The position numbers and the translations under genes were made by a program. The notes under the pieces were generated by a model that made no database searches, was not told where the DNA came from, and worked only from the letters and a program-made list of their open reading frames with translations. Positions 1,887 to 9,373 of a DNA stretch of 10,178 bases are shown piece by piece; the stretch's first letter is position 1, and each line of letters starts with the position of its first letter. The DNA is taken from NCBI GenBank assembly GCA_023389545.1, contig JAEWEI010000258.1, positions 1 through 10,178 on the forward strand, in the 5' to 3' direction. This stretch comes from Actinomycetes bacterium. Its GTDB lineage: Bacteria > Actinomycetota > Actinomycetes > Actinomycetales > Cellulomonadaceae.

Positions 1887-3359
1887 ATGAACGGGCAGGT
1901 GGCAGTGAGCTTGGCTCGACGGACGTTGCACGTTGAGGAGCCGTTCGACGTCGTGGAGGAGTTGCAGGGGGAGCTCGGCGCGCAGTCGGTCTACCTGCTC
2001 GAGTCGCTGAGTGGTCCGGCTCGCGACCGTGAGCGGGCGATCATCGGCGTCGGGCCCGTCCTGTCCATCGAGGTCGCAGACGGGCGGATCCGGGTGGACG
2101 GGCAGGCCCCGCTCGCGGCCGCCGTCGTTGAGCGCATCCGCAGATCTGGCCTGGTGGACGACGCACTGGTGCTGTGCGACCTGATGGGCGCCTGGGACGT
2201 CATGCGAGATGTGGTGTCGATGTTCGACGTCCCGCAGGCCACCGACGTGCGCCTCGACTTCGGGTTCCTCGCCGTCCTGGCCTACGACGCGGTCCGGTAC
2301 ATCGAGCAGCTCCCACGGATCATCCCGCCGCTCGACGAGCCCGTGGCGGACCTCGCGTTCACGCTGTACAGCTCGCTGCTCGAGGTCGAGCTCCGGACGA
2401 GCACCGGCAGGCTCACCACCGCGCACGGCGCGCTCTGGGAGTCGGCGCCGCCCGACGTCATCGTCTCGGCCACGGAGCGGGTGCGCGGACGGGGCGCCCG
2501 GGGCGAGCCCGCCGCGCAGAGCCCGACGCCCGTGCCCGTCGCCGCCGTGACCGAGCCAGAGTTCCTCGGGTGGGTCGACGCCGCGCTGGACCACGTCCGG
2601 GCGGGCGACGTCTACCAGGTCCAGCTCGGCTACGACGTCGAGCTGCCCACGGCGCTCGACGCGGGCGCCATCTACCGGCGCATGCGGCGCAGCAACCCCT
2701 CGCCGTTCATGGGCATGGTGCCGTTGCGGGGTGCGACGCTGCTCAGCGCCAGCCCCGAGCTGCATGTGCTGCTGAGCGGGGGCGCCGCGACGATGCGCCC
2801 GATCGCCGGCACCGCGCCGCGGACGGGCGACCCGGCAGGGGACGCGGCGGCGGTGGAGTACCTCCGCACTGCCGAGAAGGAGCACGCCGAGCACGTCATG
2901 CTCGTCGACCTTTGTCGCAACGACCTGGGCCGGGTGGCCGCGGTCGGGTCGACGCGCACCCCGACGATGATGGAGGTCGAGCCCTACTCCCACGTGTTCC
3001 ACCTGGTGTCGACAGTGACAGCCACCGTCGAGGAGGGCTACGACGTGTTCGACGTGATCCGCGCGACCTTCCCCGCGGGCACGATGACGGGCGCGCCGAA
3101 GATCAGGGCCATGGAGGTCATCGAGTCACTGGAGAGCACCCGGCGCGGCCTGTACGCGGGAATCTTCGGGGTGATCGGCGTCGGCGGCTACGCGAACCTC
3201 GCGCTGACGATCCGGTCGATCGTCTGCACCGAGGCGGGGGCCTCCACGAGGGCCTCCGCCGGCGTGGTCACGGACTCGGACCCGCATAGCGAGTGGAGGG
3301 AGACCCGGCACAAGATGAACGCGGCGGTCGCGGCGGCCACGGGTGGGGTGTTCCGATGA
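1887..3359 (+). CDS. Anthranilate/2-amino-2-deoxyisochorismate synthase component I (TrpE-like)
   Basis: This 490-residue protein is a full-length chorismate-utilising enzyme. It aminates chorismate with ammonia supplied by the downstream amidotransferase, giving 2-amino-2-deoxyisochorismate (ADIC) and, in true TrpE, anthranilate. The N-terminal domain (about 1-215) holds LLES at 37-40; the catalytic domain (about 220-485) holds NPSPF at 270-274. Both sites contact tryptophan in feedback-inhibited TrpE. PIAGT at 305-309 has Ala where lysine-type PabB has PIKGT, favouring ortho-amination. Other core motifs are KEHAEH (331-336), MLVDL-RNDLG (338-348), YSHVFHLVS (367-375), AGTMTGAPK (397-405) and DSDP (463-466). 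MTGAPK is more PabB-like than the usual LSGAPK, so a PabB role is not fully excluded. The start is ATG 1887 with a G-run at 1877-1882. It overlaps the amidotransferase gene by 4 bases. No Trp-codon leader is seen, and the P450 and glycosyltransferase neighbours suggest specialised metabolism rather than primary tryptophan synthesis. Confidence 0.88.
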   Translation: MNGQVAVSLARRTLHVEEPFDVVEELQGELGAQSVYLLESLSGPARDRERAIIGVGPVLSIEVADGRIRVDGQAPLAAAVVERIRRSGLVDDALVLCDLMGAWDVMRDVVSMFDVPQATDVRLDFGFLAVLAYDAVRYIEQLPRIIPPLDEPVADLAFTLYSSLLEVELRTSTGRLTTAHGALWESAPPDVIVSATERVRGRGARGEPAAQSPTPVPVAAVTEPEFLGWVDAALDHVRAGDVYQVQLGYDVELPTALDAGAIYRRMRRSNPSPFMGMVPLRGATLLSASPELHVLLSGGAATMRPIAGTAPRTGDPAGDAAAVEYLRTAEKEHAEHVMLVDLCRNDLGRVAAVGSTRTPTMMEVEPYSHVFHLVSTVTATVEEGYDVFDVIRATFPAGTMTGAPKIRAMEVIESLESTRRGLYAGIFGVIGVGGYANLALTIRSIVCTEAGASTRASAGVVTDSDPHSEWRETRHKMNAAVAAATGGVFR

Positions 3360-3931
3360 AGGTCCTGCTCGTGGACGCCTTCGACAGCTTCTCGCACATC
3401 ATCTACCAGTACCTGCGCGGCGAGGGCGCCGACGTCACGGTGGTCCGCTCGGGGGAGTTGACGCCCGACGAGGTGCTGGGCGCCCCTGAGGACGCCGTCG
3501 TGCTGGGGCCTGGGGGTGGGCACCCCGCCGACTCCGGGCATGTCGAGATCGTGCGCGCCGTGGCCGGAGGCAAGCCCGTCCTCGGCGTGTGCCTGGGCCA
3601 TCAGGCCATCGGCTTGGCCTTCGGCGCGCGCGTCGGCTCCGCGCCACGGCTCATGCACGGGAAGACCAGCATGGCGACGCATGACGGCCGTGGCGTTTTC
3701 TCCGGCGCGCCGCACCCGCTGCGCGTGACGCGGTACCACTCACTGGTGGTGACCGAGGACGAGTTTCCCGACTCCGTCCTCGAAATCACCGCGCGAGCGG
3801 AAGACGGAACGGTCATGGGCTTGCGCCACCGGGAGCTCGCCGTCGAGGGCGTGCAGTTCCACCCCGAGAGCGTCCTGACGCAGGCGGGCGGCGCGACCTT
3901 CGCGAACTTCCTCCGCAGGGCTGCTCAGTGA
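3356..3931 (+). CDS. Anthranilate/aminodeoxychorismate synthase component II, glutamine amidotransferase (TrpG/PabA-like)
   Basis: This 191-residue class I glutamine amidotransferase hydrolyses glutamine and channels ammonia to the component I encoded just upstream. The triad is visible: Cys79 in GVCLGHQ, and His169 and Glu171 in VQFHPES. HGKTS (101-105) and RYHSLVV (126-132) are also typical of TrpG/PabA. The oxyanion loop reads GPGGGHP (51-57), whereas the family usually has SPGPG-x-P, so a Ser and a Pro are both replaced by Gly. A longer reading frame opens at 3293, but the ATG at 3356 is chosen. It forms an ATGA overlap with the preceding stop and gives an N-terminus (MKVLLVDAFDSF) that fits the family exactly. 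The gene ends in a GTGA overlap with the flavoprotein gene. Having its own amidotransferase makes this set independent of the housekeeping TrpG/PabA. Confidence 0.9.
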   Translation: MKVLLVDAFDSFSHIIYQYLRGEGADVTVVRSGELTPDEVLGAPEDAVVLGPGGGHPADSGHVEIVRAVAGGKPVLGVCLGHQAIGLAFGARVGSAPRLMHGKTSMATHDGRGVFSGAPHPLRVTRYHSLVVTEDEFPDSVLEITARAEDGTVMGLRHRELAVEGVQFHPESVLTQAGGATFANFLRRAAQ

Positions 3932-4560
3932 CGGGGCACGGGATCCACTTTGTCGCCATCAACGGCTCGGCACGACCGCGCGGCACCACAGCGGCAGTCC
4001 TCCGCCTCGCCGGCGAGCATCTCGCGACGCGCGGCGCCACGTTCGAGACCATCCACCTCGCCGAGCGGCGGGTGGCCCCATGCCGGTGTGGTCGGTGCAA
4101 CTCCCGCACCGACCCGTGCCCGGTGGATGACGACGTGGCAGCCATCGTGGGTGCCATGCAGCGCGCAGATGCGCTCGTCTACGCCGCGCCTGTGCACGGA
4201 TACGGCCTGTCCGCCTTGATGCAGACGTTCGTCGAGCGCGCCGGCGTCGGACACCTGCGGTTCGGGCGGCCGCTCACCAACAAGGTCGGCGGAGTGGCGG
4301 TCGTCGGGCGGCGATATGCCCACGAGCCGGTGCACGCGCAACTGGTCGACAACCTGCTGCTCAACCGGATGATCTTGCCGGGGAGCGGCTTCCCCGCCAC
4401 CGTCCGCGCAGGTGGGCCGTCCGACGTCGCTCTTGACACAGAGGGCATCTCGGCCATGCTCGCGATGCTGGACAGGATGTGCGCGCTGGTGCGCGTCCTG
4501 CGCCAGACGCCGATGCCCGAGGTCGGCGACCTCGAACTGCGCGTCGGGACCCTCTCGTGA
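3928..4560 (+). CDS. Flavodoxin-fold NAD(P)H/FMN oxidoreductase with cysteine motif (iron-sulfur flavoprotein type; possible ADIC dehydrogenase)
   Basis: This 210-residue protein has the fold of the NADPH-dependent FMN reductase/iron-sulfur flavoprotein family. An FMN-phosphate loop lies at INGSARPRGTT (11-21). A substrate/FMN segment APVHGYGLSALMQTF spans about 87-101, and GGVAVVGRR lies at 121-129. Between them are four cysteines at 52, 54, 57 and 64 followed by VDDD, where Isf-type proteins ligate a 4Fe-4S cluster. The spacing C-x-C-x2-C-x6-C is not the usual C-x2-C-x2-C pattern. It starts at GTG 3928 inside the stop of the amidotransferase gene, so it is translationally coupled to the chorismate-aminating pair. 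By analogy with SgcG of C-1027 biosynthesis, an FMN/iron-sulfur dehydrogenase that oxidises ADIC to 3-enolpyruvoylanthranilate, it may act on the product of its neighbours. This role is inferred from family and context; a general quinone or flavin reductase is the alternative. Confidence 0.82.
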   Translation: MTGHGIHFVAINGSARPRGTTAAVLRLAGEHLATRGATFETIHLAERRVAPCRCGRCNSRTDPCPVDDDVAAIVGAMQRADALVYAAPVHGYGLSALMQTFVERAGVGHLRFGRPLTNKVGGVAVVGRRYAHEPVHAQLVDNLLLNRMILPGSGFPATVRAGGPSDVALDTEGISAMLAMLDRMCALVRVLRQTPMPEVGDLELRVGTLS

Positions 4561-4561
4561 C

Positions 4562-4591
4562 GGTGGGCCGCTCCGCACCTGTCATCCCACC
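4562..4591 (+). other. Inverted repeat immediately after the flavoprotein gene
   Basis: GGTGGG (4562-4567) and CCCACC (4586-4591) pair perfectly across an 18-base loop, beginning right after the TGA at 4558-4560. It may be part of a terminator or processing structure ending the first gene block. The stem is short for such a loop, so chance is possible. Confidence 0.25.
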
Positions 4592-4606
4592 CGCCGCCCC
4601 ACCACG

Positions 4607-4623
4607 GCGCCCGGCCCGGGCGC
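4607..4623 (+). promoter_or_regulatory. Perfect 17-bp GC palindrome before the second gene block
   Basis: GCGCCCGG (4607-4614) and CCGGGCGC (4616-4623) are exact inverse complements around one central C. The palindrome sits in the only gap (82 bases) of the 1887-9373 gene string, 8 bases before the GGAGG of the next gene. It could be an operator, an attenuating or processing hairpin, or a weak terminator. As a transcript hairpin it would have a 6-bp stem and 5-base loop. Confidence 0.4.
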
Positions 4624-4631
4624 GACCTGAC

Positions 4632-4636
4632 GGAGG
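4632..4636 (+). promoter_or_regulatory. Ribosome binding site of the GT-B glycosyltransferase gene
   Basis: GGAGG lies six bases before the GTG at 4643. An in-frame TGA at 4628-4630 rules out any earlier start, so this site and the GTG fix the N-terminus of the glycosyltransferase. Confidence 0.7.
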
Positions 4637-4642
4637 ACGCCC

Positions 4643-5863
4643 GTGACGACATCCCCACCGCTGAGGGTCCTCTTCGTGGCCTTCAGCCGCTCCAGCCTCG
4701 GCCACGTCACACGGATGCGGACCGCGGCCGCCCGCTTCGCCGACGCCGGGCACGACGTCGCGGTCGCCTGCCATGAGGATGTGCGGCCCCTCGTCGAACG
4801 TGCCGGCCTGCCCTGGATCGGGGTGGACGAGATCGGGCCCGCGCCGAAGTGGCGCGGCATGGACGACGTGGAGCAGCTGCGGGCGTTCGTCCGCACCCGG
4901 CTCGCCAGCCCGGCGTACCTGGAGGCCTGCCTGCGTGACGAGCTCCGCGCCATCGACGACTTCGCACCGGACGTCGTCGTCAGCGACATGCGCAACACGG
5001 CGTCGGTCGCCGCCTCGATGCGTGGGCTCCCCAGCTTCACCTGCCACAACCTGCGCCTGTTCCGGCACCCCATGCACGTGGTCCTGCCGGAGGTGCTCGC
5101 CGCGCTCAGCGCGCTCGGGATCGAGTCCGCGCACGCCCGCAACGTCCTGGGCGACGCCGTCCTGGTCCCTGACGTGGCGTTGCTCGACCCCCTCTCCGAG
5201 GTTCCCGAGCAGACCGCCGCCCTGATGTCCTCGCTCGTCGGCGAGATCCGCCATGTCGGCCCGCTGGCCCCAGCGGAGCTCTTGCGGCGAACGGTCCGCG
5301 CCGACCGTGAGCCCGAGCTCAACATCACGCTCGGCGGCTCAGGCGCCGGCGACGCGGACCTGCTCCGCGTCGCCGCGGCCGCACGCGACCTCGGGGTGCG
5401 GCTCACGGTCACCCTCGGCGTCGAGGGGGCGGGCGTCGCAGACCTGGCCGCGCGGGTCAGGGAGGCGGCGGGGTCGGCGCAGCTCGACGTGGCCGGGTTC
5501 CGGCATGACACAGTGGACGTGATGGCCCGCTCGGCAGCGGCAGTGGTCCACGGCGGCCACTCGTCGCTCGTCGAGGGGTTGCTCTGCGCGACCCCGCTGG
5601 TCCTCGTCCCGCACTCGGGCGAACAGCGTGGCAACGCGGAACGGGTGCAGGCGCTGGGCCTCGGACAGGTCGTGACGCCCGCGGACGGGCCGGCCGAGCT
5701 CGCGGAGGCCATCCGCCGCGCGCTCTTCGAGTCCGACCGCGCGGCGCACACGTCGTTCGCGGACGCGATGAGATCGGCGGACGGCGCGGCGGAGATGCTC
5801 GCCGTGGTCGAGCGCGCCGCCGCCCTCGCCGCCGCCCGCCAGCACGCCCAGGTGAGCGCATGA
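4643..5863 (+). CDS. GT-B glycosyltransferase (GT1/MurG-like, UDP- or dTDP-sugar dependent)
   Basis: This 406-residue protein has the two-domain GT-B layout and normal length of natural-product and MGT-type glycosyltransferases. The N-terminal acceptor domain begins with a beta strand and a glycine/His loop, SLGHVTR (18-24), where His21 occupies the usual catalytic-base position. GHDV at 36-39 follows, as in many family members. The C-terminal donor domain starts near ELNITLGGSG (225-234). It carries the sugar-nucleotide motif HGGHSSLVEGL (303-313), then VLVPHSGEQRGNAERV (about 320-335), matching the family's P-x2-x-DQ-x2-NA pattern with Glu-Gln in place of Asp-Gln. No signal peptide or membrane segment is seen, so it should be cytoplasmic. 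It follows the chorismate block and overlaps the next gene by ATGA. It probably attaches a sugar to a small-molecule acceptor. The exact donor and acceptor cannot be read; a role in glycan assembly is the alternative. Confidence 0.88.
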   Translation: MTTSPPLRVLFVAFSRSSLGHVTRMRTAAARFADAGHDVAVACHEDVRPLVERAGLPWIGVDEIGPAPKWRGMDDVEQLRAFVRTRLASPAYLEACLRDELRAIDDFAPDVVVSDMRNTASVAASMRGLPSFTCHNLRLFRHPMHVVLPEVLAALSALGIESAHARNVLGDAVLVPDVALLDPLSEVPEQTAALMSSLVGEIRHVGPLAPAELLRRTVRADREPELNITLGGSGAGDADLLRVAAAARDLGVRLTVTLGVEGAGVADLAARVREAAGSAQLDVAGFRHDTVDVMARSAAAVVHGGHSSLVEGLLCATPLVLVPHSGEQRGNAERVQALGLGQVVTPADGPAELAEAIRRALFESDRAAHTSFADAMRSADGAAEMLAVVERAAALAAARQHAQVSA

Positions 5864-6957
5864 CCAGCGGGATCCGGCTGTCCACCGCGATCATGACGCA
5901 CCCGGCACGGCAAGACCGAGCCCGCGCGCTGGCCGAGGCGGTGGCGGGCCTCAACCCCGTCATCGTCGTCGATCAGGGCGGTGGAACGGGGAACCTGGGC
6001 GCCGCGCTGCGCGCCTGGGCCGCCGTCGGCCAGGACGCCACCCACCACCTCGTGCTGCAAGACGACGTGACTCCCTGCGGCCGGTTCGCCGCACGCGTGC
6101 ACGACGCCGTCTCGGCGCAGCCCTCCGCCGCGATCAGCCTGTTCTGCGAGTGGGGCTCGCGCACTGCTGGGCTCGTGCGCGTCGCAGCCCGGCGCGGATG
6201 GGCCTGGGCGCGCGCGGTCGACATGTACACCCCCTCGCAGGGCCTCGTCCTGCCCCGACAGGCGGCGCTCGACTTCGCCGCGCTCGAGGACGTCGGCGGG
6301 GCCGACGACCAGGCGCTCGTCCAGTACCTTCGCCGCCGGCAGATCACGAACCTCGTGACGGTGCCCCACTTGGTTGAGCATGACGACCACGTCAGCCTGA
6401 CCGGGAACGGCTACCAGGGCCTGCGGCATGCGGTCTGCCTCCCCGAGGGGGACGAGGCCACCGACTTCGCGACACCGGTGGCCGGGGAGGGCCTGACGCG
6501 CGTGCCCTACGCGTCATGGATGCGCACGCATGCCGAGTGGTTCTACTGCGGAGCCCGAGCCGACCTCTACACCTGGCTCGGCGACTTCGCCGACACCCGC
6601 CTGCCGGAGGGCCTGCGCAAGGCGGACCTGACCGGGCTGTTCCTCGCGGACCTCGGGGAGGCCACGAGCCCAGCCCTGTCCACAGCGGTCAGCGAGCTCG
6701 CCCTCTTCGAGTACTGGACCGTTCACTTCGCCCTCGGCCTGACCGAGGCGGAGCCGCTGCCGGAGCGGCCGGGGAGGCATGCGGAGGCGGCCTTCGGCAC
6801 GGCGTTCCCCGGGCTGTTCCGGCGCCATCTCCCCGCTGCCACCACCGACGCCGTGCGGGGGGACGCGGGTCGGCTCGCGCTCGCGGCCTTCCACCGCGGG
6901 GCAGCCGCAACCCTGCCCCGGCCCTATCCCGACTGGTCCCAGGAGCCTGTGGCATGA
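5860..6957 (+). CDS. Putative GT-A-like glycosyltransferase of unrecognised family, with extra C-terminal domain
   Basis: I do not recognise a named family for this 365-residue protein. The N-terminal half (about 5-195) has the order expected of a GT-A fold. A first strand is followed by MTHPAR (12-17). A second strand, PVIVVDQGGG (33-42), precedes an acidic metal-site-like motif in HLVLQDDV (63-70). This resembles the LxLEDD motif of GT25-like enzymes and the VLQDD motif of some actinophage glycosyltransferase-like proteins. PSQGLVLPR (125-133), GADDQAL (147-153) and EHDDHVS (173-179) fit later sugar-binding positions. The C-terminal part (about 210-365), rich in Trp, Tyr and Phe, has no recognisable motif and may bind acceptor or partner. 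No signal peptide or membrane helix is evident. It is joined by ATGA overlaps to the GT-B gene upstream and the P450 gene downstream, so it very likely works in the same pathway. Confidence is high that it is a gene, low for exact function. Confidence 0.75.
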   Translation: MTSGIRLSTAIMTHPARQDRARALAEAVAGLNPVIVVDQGGGTGNLGAALRAWAAVGQDATHHLVLQDDVTPCGRFAARVHDAVSAQPSAAISLFCEWGSRTAGLVRVAARRGWAWARAVDMYTPSQGLVLPRQAALDFAALEDVGGADDQALVQYLRRRQITNLVTVPHLVEHDDHVSLTGNGYQGLRHAVCLPEGDEATDFATPVAGEGLTRVPYASWMRTHAEWFYCGARADLYTWLGDFADTRLPEGLRKADLTGLFLADLGEATSPALSTAVSELALFEYWTVHFALGLTEAEPLPERPGRHAEAAFGTAFPGLFRRHLPAATTDAVRGDAGRLALAAFHRGAAATLPRPYPDWSQEPVA

Positions 6958-8372
6958 GCCCCGTCCTGCCCGGCCCCGCCCCGCACCCCGTGCTCCGCAG
7001 GCGGGCCAACGCCCACGTGTACGCCACCGATCCGGTGGGCTACTCCTCGCGGCTCTACCACGAGCACGGGCCGGTGAGCGGTCTTGTGCGAGGCGACGAC
7101 CGCCAGGTCTTCGCATTCGGCCCGGAGCACAACCGGACGGTGATGACGAGCGGCGACGTGTTCCACACGGTGCTGGAGCACAGCATCCCGGAGCGGATCC
7201 GCAGGGCCAGGCGCGGCATCGGCCTGTTGAACATGAACGGCCCGGCTCATCGCGTGGCACGCCGCATGGCAGCGCCGTCCTTCCGCCCGCAGGTGATCGC
7301 GCAGCACGCGGAGCTCATCGCCGAGCTCGCGGCCGCCGAGGTCGACACCTGGGCCGCCGGCGAGCCCTTCGACCTGGCAGCCGCGATGCGCAGGCTCACG
7401 CTCCGGATCGCCTGCCGCTGCCTGTTCGGAGTGGACATCGCGGCCAGCGCCGACCCGATCGGCGTGATGGTCCAGGACATGCTCGCGCTGCGCTACTTCG
7501 ACTCGTCAATCCGCTACTTCCCGTTCGACGTCCCCGGAGCCCCGTATCGCCGCCTGCTGACCGTCATCCGCCGCCTGGACGACACTCTCGCCGAGATCGT
7601 CGCGACCCGGCGCGCCCAGGACGGGCAGCCGGACCTCCTTGGCTCCCTGCTCTCCACGCGCGACGGCGACGGGCGGCAGTTGGACGACGACCAGCTCGTG
7701 GGGCACCTCACGACTCTGCTCGTGGCGGGGCACGAGACGTCGTCGAACACGCTGGCGTGGGCCTTCCTGCTGCTGTCCCAGCACCCCGGCGAACTCGACA
7801 CGGTGCTGGCATCCGTCCCGGGCCGCTCACCCGGGAGGCCGGCGGACGCAGCGGCCGCCGTGGGCGACGCCACCCTCGACAGGGTGCTGAAGGAGGTCCT
7901 CCGCCTGCTGCCGCCCGGGCCCCTGACCGCGCGAATCGCCATGGCGCCCACGCAGATCGGCGGGTACGAGATCCCCGCGTGGTGCCAGGTCATGACCAGC
8001 AAGTTCGTGACCCACCGCGACCCTGTGGTGTTCCCCGATCCGCTGAGGTTCCGGCCGGGCCGCTGGGAGTCCACGCGGCCCAGCCTGTACCAGTACCTGC
8101 CGTACGGGGCAGGGGCCCACGCATGCCTGGGCGCCGCGTTCGCCGACCTGGAGATGAAGATCGTGCTGGCGACGGTGCTCGGCCGCTACCGGCTCGAGCC
8201 AGTGCCCGGCACAGAGGTCTCACGGCAGGTTGGGCTGATGATGGCGCCGCGCGGCGCGATCCCCGTGGTGGCCCGCCCCCGAGAGGCGGCAGGTCCGGTC
8301 GCACGCGTGCAGGGGGACGTGCACGAGATGGTCGACATGGACGGCGCCCACCGGTGGAGGCTCGGATGGTGA
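6954..8372 (+). CDS. Cytochrome P450 monooxygenase
   Basis: This 472-residue haem monooxygenase has all P450 landmarks. The C-helix G-x2-H-x3-R lies at 96-103, and the oxygen-activating I-helix AGHETSS at 258-264. The K-helix E-x2-R is E314-V-L-R317, and FRPGRW lies at 366-371. The haem loop is PYGAGAHACLG (383-393), with Cys391 as thiolate ligand; Tyr384 replaces the commoner Phe. FRPGRW and the loop resemble bacterial P450s of the eukaryote-like (CYP3/4/102/110-type) clan more than the classic Streptomyces CYP105/107 group. After the core end near 441 there is a charged tail of about 30 residues. A longer frame opens upstream at 6516, but ATG 6954, overlapping the preceding TGA as ATGA, gives a normal N-terminus. 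No ferredoxin or reductase gene lies in the window, so electrons must come from proteins encoded elsewhere. It probably hydroxylates or otherwise oxidises the pathway product; the substrate is unknown. Confidence 0.93.
   Translation: MSPVLPGPAPHPVLRRRANAHVYATDPVGYSSRLYHEHGPVSGLVRGDDRQVFAFGPEHNRTVMTSGDVFHTVLEHSIPERIRRARRGIGLLNMNGPAHRVARRMAAPSFRPQVIAQHAELIAELAAAEVDTWAAGEPFDLAAAMRRLTLRIACRCLFGVDIAASADPIGVMVQDMLALRYFDSSIRYFPFDVPGAPYRRLLTVIRRLDDTLAEIVATRRAQDGQPDLLGSLLSTRDGDGRQLDDDQLVGHLTTLLVAGHETSSNTLAWAFLLLSQHPGELDTVLASVPGRSPGRPADAAAAVGDATLDRVLKEVLRLLPPGPLTARIAMAPTQIGGYEIPAWCQVMTSKFVTHRDPVVFPDPLRFRPGRWESTRPSLYQYLPYGAGAHACLGAAFADLEMKIVLATVLGRYRLEPVPGTEVSRQVGLMMAPRGAIPVVARPREAAGPVARVQGDVHEMVDMDGAHRWRLGW
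8356..8360 (+). promoter_or_regulatory. Ribosome binding site of the GT2 gene
   Basis: GGAGG lies inside the end of the P450 gene, five bases before ATG 8366 and eight before GTG 8369. Both starts are in the same frame and consecutive, so the protein differs by one residue at most. Its location shows the GT2 gene starts here and not further upstream, where the open frame continues. Confidence 0.6.
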
Positions 8373-9373
8373 CCCCACCCGTCAGCCTCGTGATGGCCAC
8401 CCATGACAAGCGCGAGTACCTACGCCTCACGTTGGAGTCGCTGACCGTCCAGACCCACCGTGACTTCGAGCTCGTGCTGTGCGACGACGGAACGGCAGGC
8501 GGAGTCGAGGACGTGGTCGCGCCGTTCCGCGGCGTGCTGGACATCACCGTGGTGGTCCAAGAGAACCTGGGCAGGGCCGCTGCCCGGAACGCCGCCCTGG
8601 AGCGGGCAGGCGGGGACCTCGTCGTCTTCCTCGACGACGACCGCCTCGCCGCTCCGGGCTTCGTGGCCGAGCATGCCGCGGCCGCGAGCGTGACGGCGCG
8701 CGGGCATATCGGCTGGAAGCGCCGGGCGTTGACGTGGTGGCGACCCGGGATGCTCCCGTTGGGGGAGGCGGACCTGCTCTGGCTCACCCATCGGGCCGGG
8801 GGAGCCGCGGCGCTGGCGGAGCCACTGTGGCTGCTCGAGCCGGGCAGGCTCTCGGTCGACGCGGCAGCGGCGCTCGCGTCGGTGGACCGTGGCGACGAGC
8901 CGGACAACTACCACGCGGTGGTCGAGGCGTACGGGACTGGCCTGACGGGCTTCCGATTCGGCTGGGCGTTGGCGACCACGGCCAACCTAGCGGTCCCGAT
9001 GGCCGCGGTGCGCGAGGCGGGGGGCTTCGACGCCACCTTCACGGGCTGGGGGATGGAGGACACCGACCTCAGCTATCGGTTGCACCGCCTGGGTGTGGAG
9101 TTCGCCATCGCGACCCGAGCGGTCAACTACCACCAGGTCCATCCGCTCGGCCACCCGGACCCGGTCGTGGCGCAGCGCCTGATGCGCGGCCAGCTGATGC
9201 GGAACCTCGACCACTTCTGCCGGCGCCACGCGCGCCTCGACGCCTACCTCTTTCGCCGGCGGTGGGAGCACGCGATGACGCTGGTGGACGCGGATGTGCT
9301 CCTCAAGCAGATCGAGGCCGAGCCCGACGGCCGGCTGCTCCGCGAGCTCGAAGCGCTGTACGCGGTGAGATGA
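8366..9373 (+). CDS. Family 2 glycosyltransferase with galactosyltransferase-type (7C) C-terminal region
   Basis: This 335-residue protein begins as a classic GT2 GT-A domain: VSLVMATHDKREYL (6-19), ELVLCDDG (35-42), ENLGRAAARN (66-75) and the metal-binding LDDDR at 89-93. The later part holds TTANLAVP (204-211), REAGGFD (216-222) and WGMEDTDLSYRL (228-239). This is the ED-containing motif of the Glyco_transf_7C region seen in polypeptide N-acetylgalactosaminyl-/galactosyltransferase-like enzymes. Family knowledge supports transfer of a sugar from a nucleotide donor with inversion; donor and acceptor are not predictable here. There is no membrane helix, so it is likely cytosolic. The start at ATG 8366 overlaps the P450 stop by seven bases (GTG 8369 would give a GTGA overlap) and has GGAGG nearby. 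It is the last gene of the overlapping string, and a hairpin follows. Such enzymes are commoner in glycan synthesis than in small-molecule tailoring, which makes the P450 linkage notable. Confidence 0.9.
   Translation: MVTPPVSLVMATHDKREYLRLTLESLTVQTHRDFELVLCDDGTAGGVEDVVAPFRGVLDITVVVQENLGRAAARNAALERAGGDLVVFLDDDRLAAPGFVAEHAAAASVTARGHIGWKRRALTWWRPGMLPLGEADLLWLTHRAGGAAALAEPLWLLEPGRLSVDAAAALASVDRGDEPDNYHAVVEAYGTGLTGFRFGWALATTANLAVPMAAVREAGGFDATFTGWGMEDTDLSYRLHRLGVEFAIATRAVNYHQVHPLGHPDPVVAQRLMRGQLMRNLDHFCRRHARLDAYLFRRRWEHAMTLVDADVLLKQIEAEPDGRLLRELEALYAVR

Follow-up and report, generated by a model that had tools for sequence, protein, structure and literature searches.

A predicted 3-enolpyruvoylanthranilate module in a glycosyltransferase-rich actinobacterial cluster that lacks the benzoxazolinate ligase

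The 10,178-nucleotide contig JAEWEI010000258.1 from an Actinomycetes bacterium of the Cellulomonadaceae (assembly GCA_023389545.1; the whole contig is called the window here) carries, at positions 1887–4560, three overlapping genes encoding relatives of SgcD and SgcG of C-1027 biosynthesis together with a glutamine amidotransferase. We consider it likely that this triad is an SgcD/TrpG/SgcG-type module, in which chorismate would be aminated to 2-amino-2-deoxyisochorismate (ADIC) and ADIC oxidised to 3-enolpyruvoylanthranilate (OPA). The module most likely feeds a glycosylation pathway without the known cyclase.

The predicted chorismate-aminating pair and its flavoprotein

All three genes lie on the + strand and are joined by an ATGA overlap at 3356–3359 and a GTGA overlap at 3928–3931. 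The first encodes an SgcD/TrpE-like component I (1887–3359, 490 residues; PF00425, 257 bits; PF04715, 42 bits), the predicted ADIC-forming subunit, and the second a TrpG-like amidotransferase, component II (3356–3931, 191 residues; PF00117, 159 bits), whose translation contains GVCLGHQ and QFHPES, which presumably hold the Cys, His and Glu of class-I amidotransferases. The third encodes the flavoprotein (3928–4560, 210 residues; PF03358, 88 bits), with four clustered cysteines and predicted to be an SgcG/XsbA-type ADIC dehydrogenase. The Pfam matches and the overlaps thus confirm the initial annotation of a TrpE-like, a TrpG-like and a four-cysteine flavodoxin-fold protein in one coupled unit.

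Component I is 44% identical to SgcD of C-1027. Its best NCBIfam models are those of TrpE, yet it reaches 326 and 326 bits against curated cut-offs of 518 and 512, which SgcD likewise misses (345 and 327 bits). The initial annotation had pointed to the motif PIAGT (residues 305–309, nucleotides 2799–2813). The motif is indeed present, in place of the PIKGT lysine that is the hallmark of PabB and is found in E. coli PabB, but E. coli TrpE also has PIAGT; we therefore rejected it as specific for ADIC synthases; judging from these sequences, it distinguishes only between PabB and proteins of the TrpE class. In a quick 92-row tree, component I fell in an 81-row clade with SgcD (Shimodaira–Hasegawa-like approximate likelihood ratio test, 98), and a more careful 86-row tree placed it in a 73-row clade with SgcD (support 100/99, bootstrap not settled). 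Outside the latter clade fell E. coli TrpE, PabB, PhzE-type proteins, the fused TrpEG of Glycomyces and Nocardiopsis, and also the four TrpE proteins without fusion, from Catellatospora, with which this tree had been supplemented. Component I thus groups with SgcD and away from TrpE and PabB as sampled, the housekeeping sample being small and long-branched.

Over 90% of its length, the flavoprotein shares 48.7% identity with SgcG of C-1027. Its structure model (36 sequences; predicted local distance difference test, 92) has an NADPH-FMN reductase fold, that is, a flavodoxin-like fold of the type that binds flavin mononucleotide (FMN). In a 76-row tree it stands on the SgcG-family branch (support 94/89, with several long branches), away from the general quinone reductases WrbA, YieF and SsuE of E. 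coli and from two paralogues from Catellatospora and Glycomyces genomes. Since component I did not group with TrpE or PabB, nor the flavoprotein with quinone reductases, the two trees support the SgcD/SgcG-type route from ADIC to OPA that had been proposed for this DNA. The four cysteines (residues 52, 54, 57 and 64; nucleotides 4081–4119) are spaced C-x-C-x2-C-x6-C, with a first spacer one residue below that of SgcG. In one sampled family, a flavoprotein of this kind occurs in 8 of 101 genomes. A diverged SgcG-like flavoprotein is also carried by 23 Pseudomonas plasmid records; the one plasmid examined (L084, NZ_KY362366.1) combines components I and II and a PaaK-type ligase with a flavoprotein without the usual cysteine spacing.

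Linkage of the flavoprotein to SgcD-like genes

To evaluate this linkage, loci were collected with the flavoprotein alignment alone, which gave 102 confirmed stretches; the best 80 loci were kept for all counts out of 80. Genes in the loci were called with a home-made program that assigns the first possible start mechanically and overlooks some genes (in the window, those for TrpG, the P450 and the last glycosyltransferase). In 47/80 loci a component I relative, defined by at least 100 bits to the window protein, is found no more than 4 kb from the flavoprotein, and in 53/80 it is present anywhere in the locus; because the flavoprotein alone had selected these loci, the linkage exceeds chance. 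The remaining 27 loci comprise five from Catellatospora and 22 others, and 21 of the latter genomes (all except that of L049) were searched with SgcD. In 15 of them an SgcD match of 336–412 bits lies just beyond the fetched stretch, as judged by matching coordinates. L062 has a 552-bit match, perhaps on the same contig; the contig of L027 is too short for a decision; for L015 and L030 the sole match scores 218 bits, comparable with the weaker, secondary match found in most of the other genomes; and the genomes of L072 and L076 have no SgcD match at E 1e-60. Overall, an SgcD-like gene is near the flavoprotein in 68 of the 80 loci, perhaps in one more, undecided in two, and not in nine.

The loci fall partly into other recurring types. 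A second SgcG-like cluster type (L015, L018, L019, L021–L024, L026–L033, L035, L038, L041, L043–L046, L049 and L053) draws on a pool of genes for a UbiD-family decarboxylase, a cupin, a TrpB-like pyridoxal phosphate enzyme, a B3/4-domain protein, an ATP-grasp enzyme and a major facilitator superfamily (MFS) transporter, not all of them in each locus, and a related set occurs in Paenibacillus (L039, L059 and L068). A third type, from Streptomyces (L040, L047, L048, L051, L055, L057, L058 and L060), has the TrpE, TrpG and flavoprotein genes facing those for an amidohydrolase, a PaaK-type ligase, an MFS transporter and two ATP-grasp enzymes. L072 and L076, from Microbispora, encode homologues of SgcG and of the C-1027 ligase SgcH, with a PhzE-type gene some 20–30 kb from the flavoprotein on what appears to be the same contig, the ligase coordinates fitting.

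Several observations weigh against the assignment of the triad to the ADIC-to-OPA route. Nine loci have no nearby SgcD-like gene, among them the five from Catellatospora that belong to the same group as the window (see below). In addition, the cysteine spacing is 2-2-6 in SgcG and in 65 of the 66 parsed loci outside that group, unlike the 1-2-6 of the window and of all 13 loci in its group (the remaining one of the 66 lacked a pattern of this kind, and 79 of the 80 loci were parsed). The SgcD-like clade itself includes component I proteins encoded beside trpD on Streptomyces plasmids (L081 and L082), and in the family of the L036 genome an SgcD-like gene (E 1e-90) occurs in 5 of 150 genomes and the flavoprotein in 1 of 150. 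According to the accessible part of PMC5958127, no residue is known to distinguish an ADIC synthase from an anthranilate synthase, and sequence does not reveal what makes only one of the two enzymes expel pyruvate; our alignment agrees, as E. coli TrpE and SgcD both share the His of YSHVxHLVS with the window protein, so that by sequence component I could release either ADIC or anthranilate. Finally, the tailoring protein U365 (described below) has relatives outside the flavoprotein context as well (15 of 394 genomes of the class), and genes for GT1 and the P450 accompany U365 in only 1 of 22 short loci, which is the Catellatospora cluster itself; this protein type is therefore not tied to the flavoprotein. 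Because the SgcD-like clade spans trpD neighbours and flavoprotein-free pairs, it is the SgcG-type partner that carries the argument. The four other SgcD-like genes of the L036 family adjoin different genes. L142–L145 have an SgcD-like component I and no flavoprotein in the genome, in one case beside an indolepyruvate-decarboxylase-like thiamine pyrophosphate enzyme (named by eye); these genes possibly belong to another pathway.

A group of clusters without the ring-closing ligase

Downstream of the triad, an 82-nucleotide gap (4561–4642) leads to four further + strand genes, of which the first encodes the glycosyltransferase GT1 (4643–5863, 406 residues), with MGT and MJ1255 family matches below their cut-offs. 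The second product, U365 (5860–6957), matched no Pfam family; its structure model (predicted local distance difference test, 93) gave weak matches to GT-A glycosyltransferases (template modelling scores of 0.25–0.39), and we therefore call it only GT-A-like, a putative glycosyltransferase. A QDD motif is invariant in U365, and one relative is named a GR25-family glycosyltransferase by its source. There follow a cytochrome P450 (6954–8372, 472 residues), whose nearest model is ApyO, below cut-off, and whose PYGAGAHACLG we take to be the haem loop, and a GT2-family glycosyltransferase (8369–9373, 334 residues). GT1 and GT2 fall in known glycosyltransferase families.

The same set recurs in a group of 13 loci, from Nocardiopsis (L001), Catellatospora (L002, L003, L004, L006 and L010), Glycomyces (L005, L007, L008, L009, L011 and L020) and a metagenome bin (L012). 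The full order TrpE-TrpG-flavoprotein-MFS-GT1-U365-P450-GT2 is whole in 5/13 and partial in 8/13: flavoprotein, MFS transporter, GT1 and U365 are present in all 13, the P450 and GT2 in 10, and components I and II in 8. Two divergently oriented genes each for ATP-grasp enzymes and carbamoyltransferases flank three Glycomyces clusters (L005, L007 and L009), and Catellatospora L002 has a single gene of either type, so that such genes occur in 4/13 loci overall. A literature search, mostly outside subscription journals, found no paper on this cluster type.

Benzoxazolinate formation needs an XsbC-type acyl-AMP ligase, the chemistry of SgcD, SgcG and XsbC being described in PMC10098953 (available in part). 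A relative of the C-1027 ligase (SgcH/XsbC-type, above 250 bits) is present in 51 of the 80 flavoprotein loci and in none of the 13 group loci, and the window yielded only a 12-residue match at E 8. A search of 11 of the 13 group genomes (all but L008 and L012) for an SgcH-type ligase gave no good match, the best reaching 80 bits at 28% identity, compared with 429–767 bits in 4/4 control genomes. No ligase was seen in the fetched stretches of 16 additional loci that do not belong to the group, some of these stretches having been cut short. The initial annotation had suggested a dedicated amidotransferase and regarded the setting as unusual for its want of enediyne, phenazine, PKS or NRPS genes in view. 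We rejected a dedicated amidotransferase as an unusual trait, because in S. globisporus C-1027 the gene order is sgcG, PaaK-family ligase, sgcD, component II, and such an amidotransferase is therefore usual; the setting itself proved unusual in another respect, since the ligase is missing throughout the group.

In the scheme that we infer, component I and its amidotransferase would aminate chorismate at C2 and release ADIC rather than anthranilate, and the flavoprotein (with FMN and probably an iron–sulfur cluster) would oxidise ADIC to OPA with the enolpyruvyl ether retained. GT1, the GT-A-type transferase, the P450 and GT2 would then glycosylate and oxidise the aromatic unit, with sugar donors and an order of steps that are equally conjectural, and relatives additionally encode an MFS exporter. 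As the group lacks the acyl-AMP ligase for ring closure of OPA, OPA would either stay uncyclised or be activated by another enzyme. A separate product family, built on uncyclised OPA from the trio, glycosylated two or three times, oxidised, and devoid of a benzoxazolinate ring, is to us a tentative proposal with slightly less than an even chance, and what the cluster makes could be a compound of a new kind. To our knowledge, the branch from ADIC to OPA has been described only in connection with benzoxazolinate products (C-1027, ashimides and benzobactins). In the accessible part of PMC10098953, the published survey probed bacteria in general with XsbC, the ring-closing ligase, and restricted the use of SgcG to Xenorhabdus and Photorhabdus, so that ligase-free clusters would not have surfaced there; if it exists, a family of uncyclised OPA products escapes genome mining that begins from the XsbC ligase. 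Judging from this group, the branch may also supply sugar-rich pathways that lack the ligase in Glycomyces, Catellatospora and Nocardiopsis, and as most of the group's loci belong to named strains, the product can be sought directly.

The five Catellatospora loci, in which component I was not found, raise the question of another ADIC source. Four of these genomes each encode one housekeeping-type TrpE (44% identical to E. coli TrpE versus 39–41% to the window component I), one PabB-sized match and one fused PhzE-type protein, and the fifth one PabB-type and two PhzE-type proteins. PhzE-type proteins occur in 5/5 Catellatospora genomes and in 0/6 Glycomyces and Nocardiopsis genomes, a hint that a PhzE-type enzyme may supply ADIC in Catellatospora. 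The contrast is weak because such proteins were found in 22 of the 28 genomes searched, including 13/13 SgcD-bearing Micromonospora and Streptomyces genomes and four others; being equally common in SgcD-bearing genomes, PhzE-type enzymes were rejected as a proven substitute. Moreover, a reference title in the part of PMC5958127 available to us names the fused enzyme of S. venezuelae an anthranilate synthase, so fused enzymes need not make ADIC. L092 scored 443 bits against 3r74 (PhzE-type), with the next score at 79. Adjoining the Catellatospora vulcania cluster, a C-terminal remnant of a PhzE-like fused enzyme was observed at L010:15221–16207 (– strand).

Three alternatives were weighed against this background. 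Components I and II could form a pathway-specific anthranilate synthase in a cluster for glycosylated anthranilate derivatives, the flavoprotein serving elsewhere, for example on a later intermediate or in reduced flavin supply. This would suit the TrpE class of component I (PIAGT, and TrpE as best NCBIfam models), the related component I genes in trpD-bearing loci (L081, L082 and L037) and the indistinguishability of the two activities by sequence in PMC5958127, as far as accessible. We regard it as unlikely, as the flavoprotein family is tied to SgcD-like genes across several cluster types, including the OPA-making C-1027 pair, and trpD or trpC relatives occur in 1/80 loci (L037) and in neither the window nor the 13 group loci. 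Compatible with an OPA-forming module is a benzoxazolinate product after all, with OPA cyclised by another ligase, such as an ATP-grasp enzyme or one encoded elsewhere in the window's genome. The ATP-grasp genes (one with an LAL_C2 match under cut-off) and carbamoyltransferase genes that flank 4/13 group loci fit such a route, which nevertheless seems doubtful to us, given that the other nine loci show neither gene in the fetched stretch (some short) and that the search of 11 group genomes described above returned no SgcH-type ligase. A PhzD-type route, in which ADIC would be hydrolysed to dihydro-hydroxyanthranilate and aromatised by the flavoprotein to 3-hydroxyanthranilate, has a precedent in the route via an isochorismatase and an oxidoreductase described in the accessible part of PMC5958127. 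This is highly improbable here, where the isochorismatase family was unmatched among the ten window proteins scanned and the flavoprotein is of the SgcG type. An OPA-forming SgcD/TrpG/SgcG-type module therefore remains our preferred reading of the triad.

Apparent mosaic origin, surroundings and known systems

The window (70–75% G+C along its length) has seven densely packed + strand genes at 1887–9373, with ATGA or GTGA overlaps joining neighbours inside each of the two blocks, which the 82-nucleotide gap parts. In 13/13 group loci an MFS transporter gene (~1.2 kb) occupies the place of this gap, and its absence from 4561–4642 coincides with a switch in affinity. Component I and the flavoprotein are 63% and 69% identical to their Nocardiopsis counterparts compared with 46–48% and 55–56% to those of Glycomyces, whereas GT1 and U365 are 67–74% and 57–70% identical to Glycomyces and Catellatospora proteins compared with 49% and 42% to those of Nocardiopsis; component II is non-diagnostic (63–69% to both sides). 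Trees place component I with Nocardiopsis (100/100) and nest U365 within the Glycomyces/Catellatospora clade, to the exclusion of Nocardiopsis (97/97); the GT1 tree did not resolve. From these comparisons the cluster looks mosaic, with a Nocardiopsis-like triad and Glycomyces/Catellatospora-like tailoring genes, and the group illustrates how such clusters are assembled from exchangeable modules.

Neither the genes upstream of these seven, for a deazaflavin-type reductase and a fourfold cold-shock protein, nor the PanE-like gene downstream had a listed match in any of the 13 group loci, and the operon was therefore taken as 1887–9373. The cold-shock product (152–1087) consists of four consecutive domains (PF00313, 4 stretches, 281 bits). 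A promoter and terminator scan of 1700–1990 found nothing. A transporter, ligase or ATP-grasp gene may sit beyond the window edges.

Among known systems, Isf proteins combine a flavodoxin-like fold with a compact cysteine cluster, C-x2-C-x2-C-x4-7-C. The window flavoprotein shares the fold and a compact cluster; by this general description of Isf, the first spacer is two residues, compared with one in the window. PhzE has a predicted product, ADIC, in common with the window component I, but is only distantly similar (55 bits for 3r74) and fuses component I to its amidotransferase, which the window encodes as two separate genes. Closer is C-1027, where SgcD, SgcG and component II are the same three protein types as in the triad; there, a PaaK-family ligase gene lies between sgcG and sgcD in an enediyne cluster, whereas the window has no ligase gene between them, no enediyne genes in view, a cysteine spacing shorter by one, and then glycosyltransferase and P450 genes. 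The benzoxazolinate cassette (sgc, xsb and pbz; PMC10098953, in the part available) shares its ADIC synthase and ADIC dehydrogenase homologues with the window. The third and defining gene of the cassette encodes the acyl-AMP ligase; as it is missing from the window, from 13/13 group loci and from 11/11 group genomes searched, we do not file the cluster as such a cassette, although its first two steps probably work in the same way.

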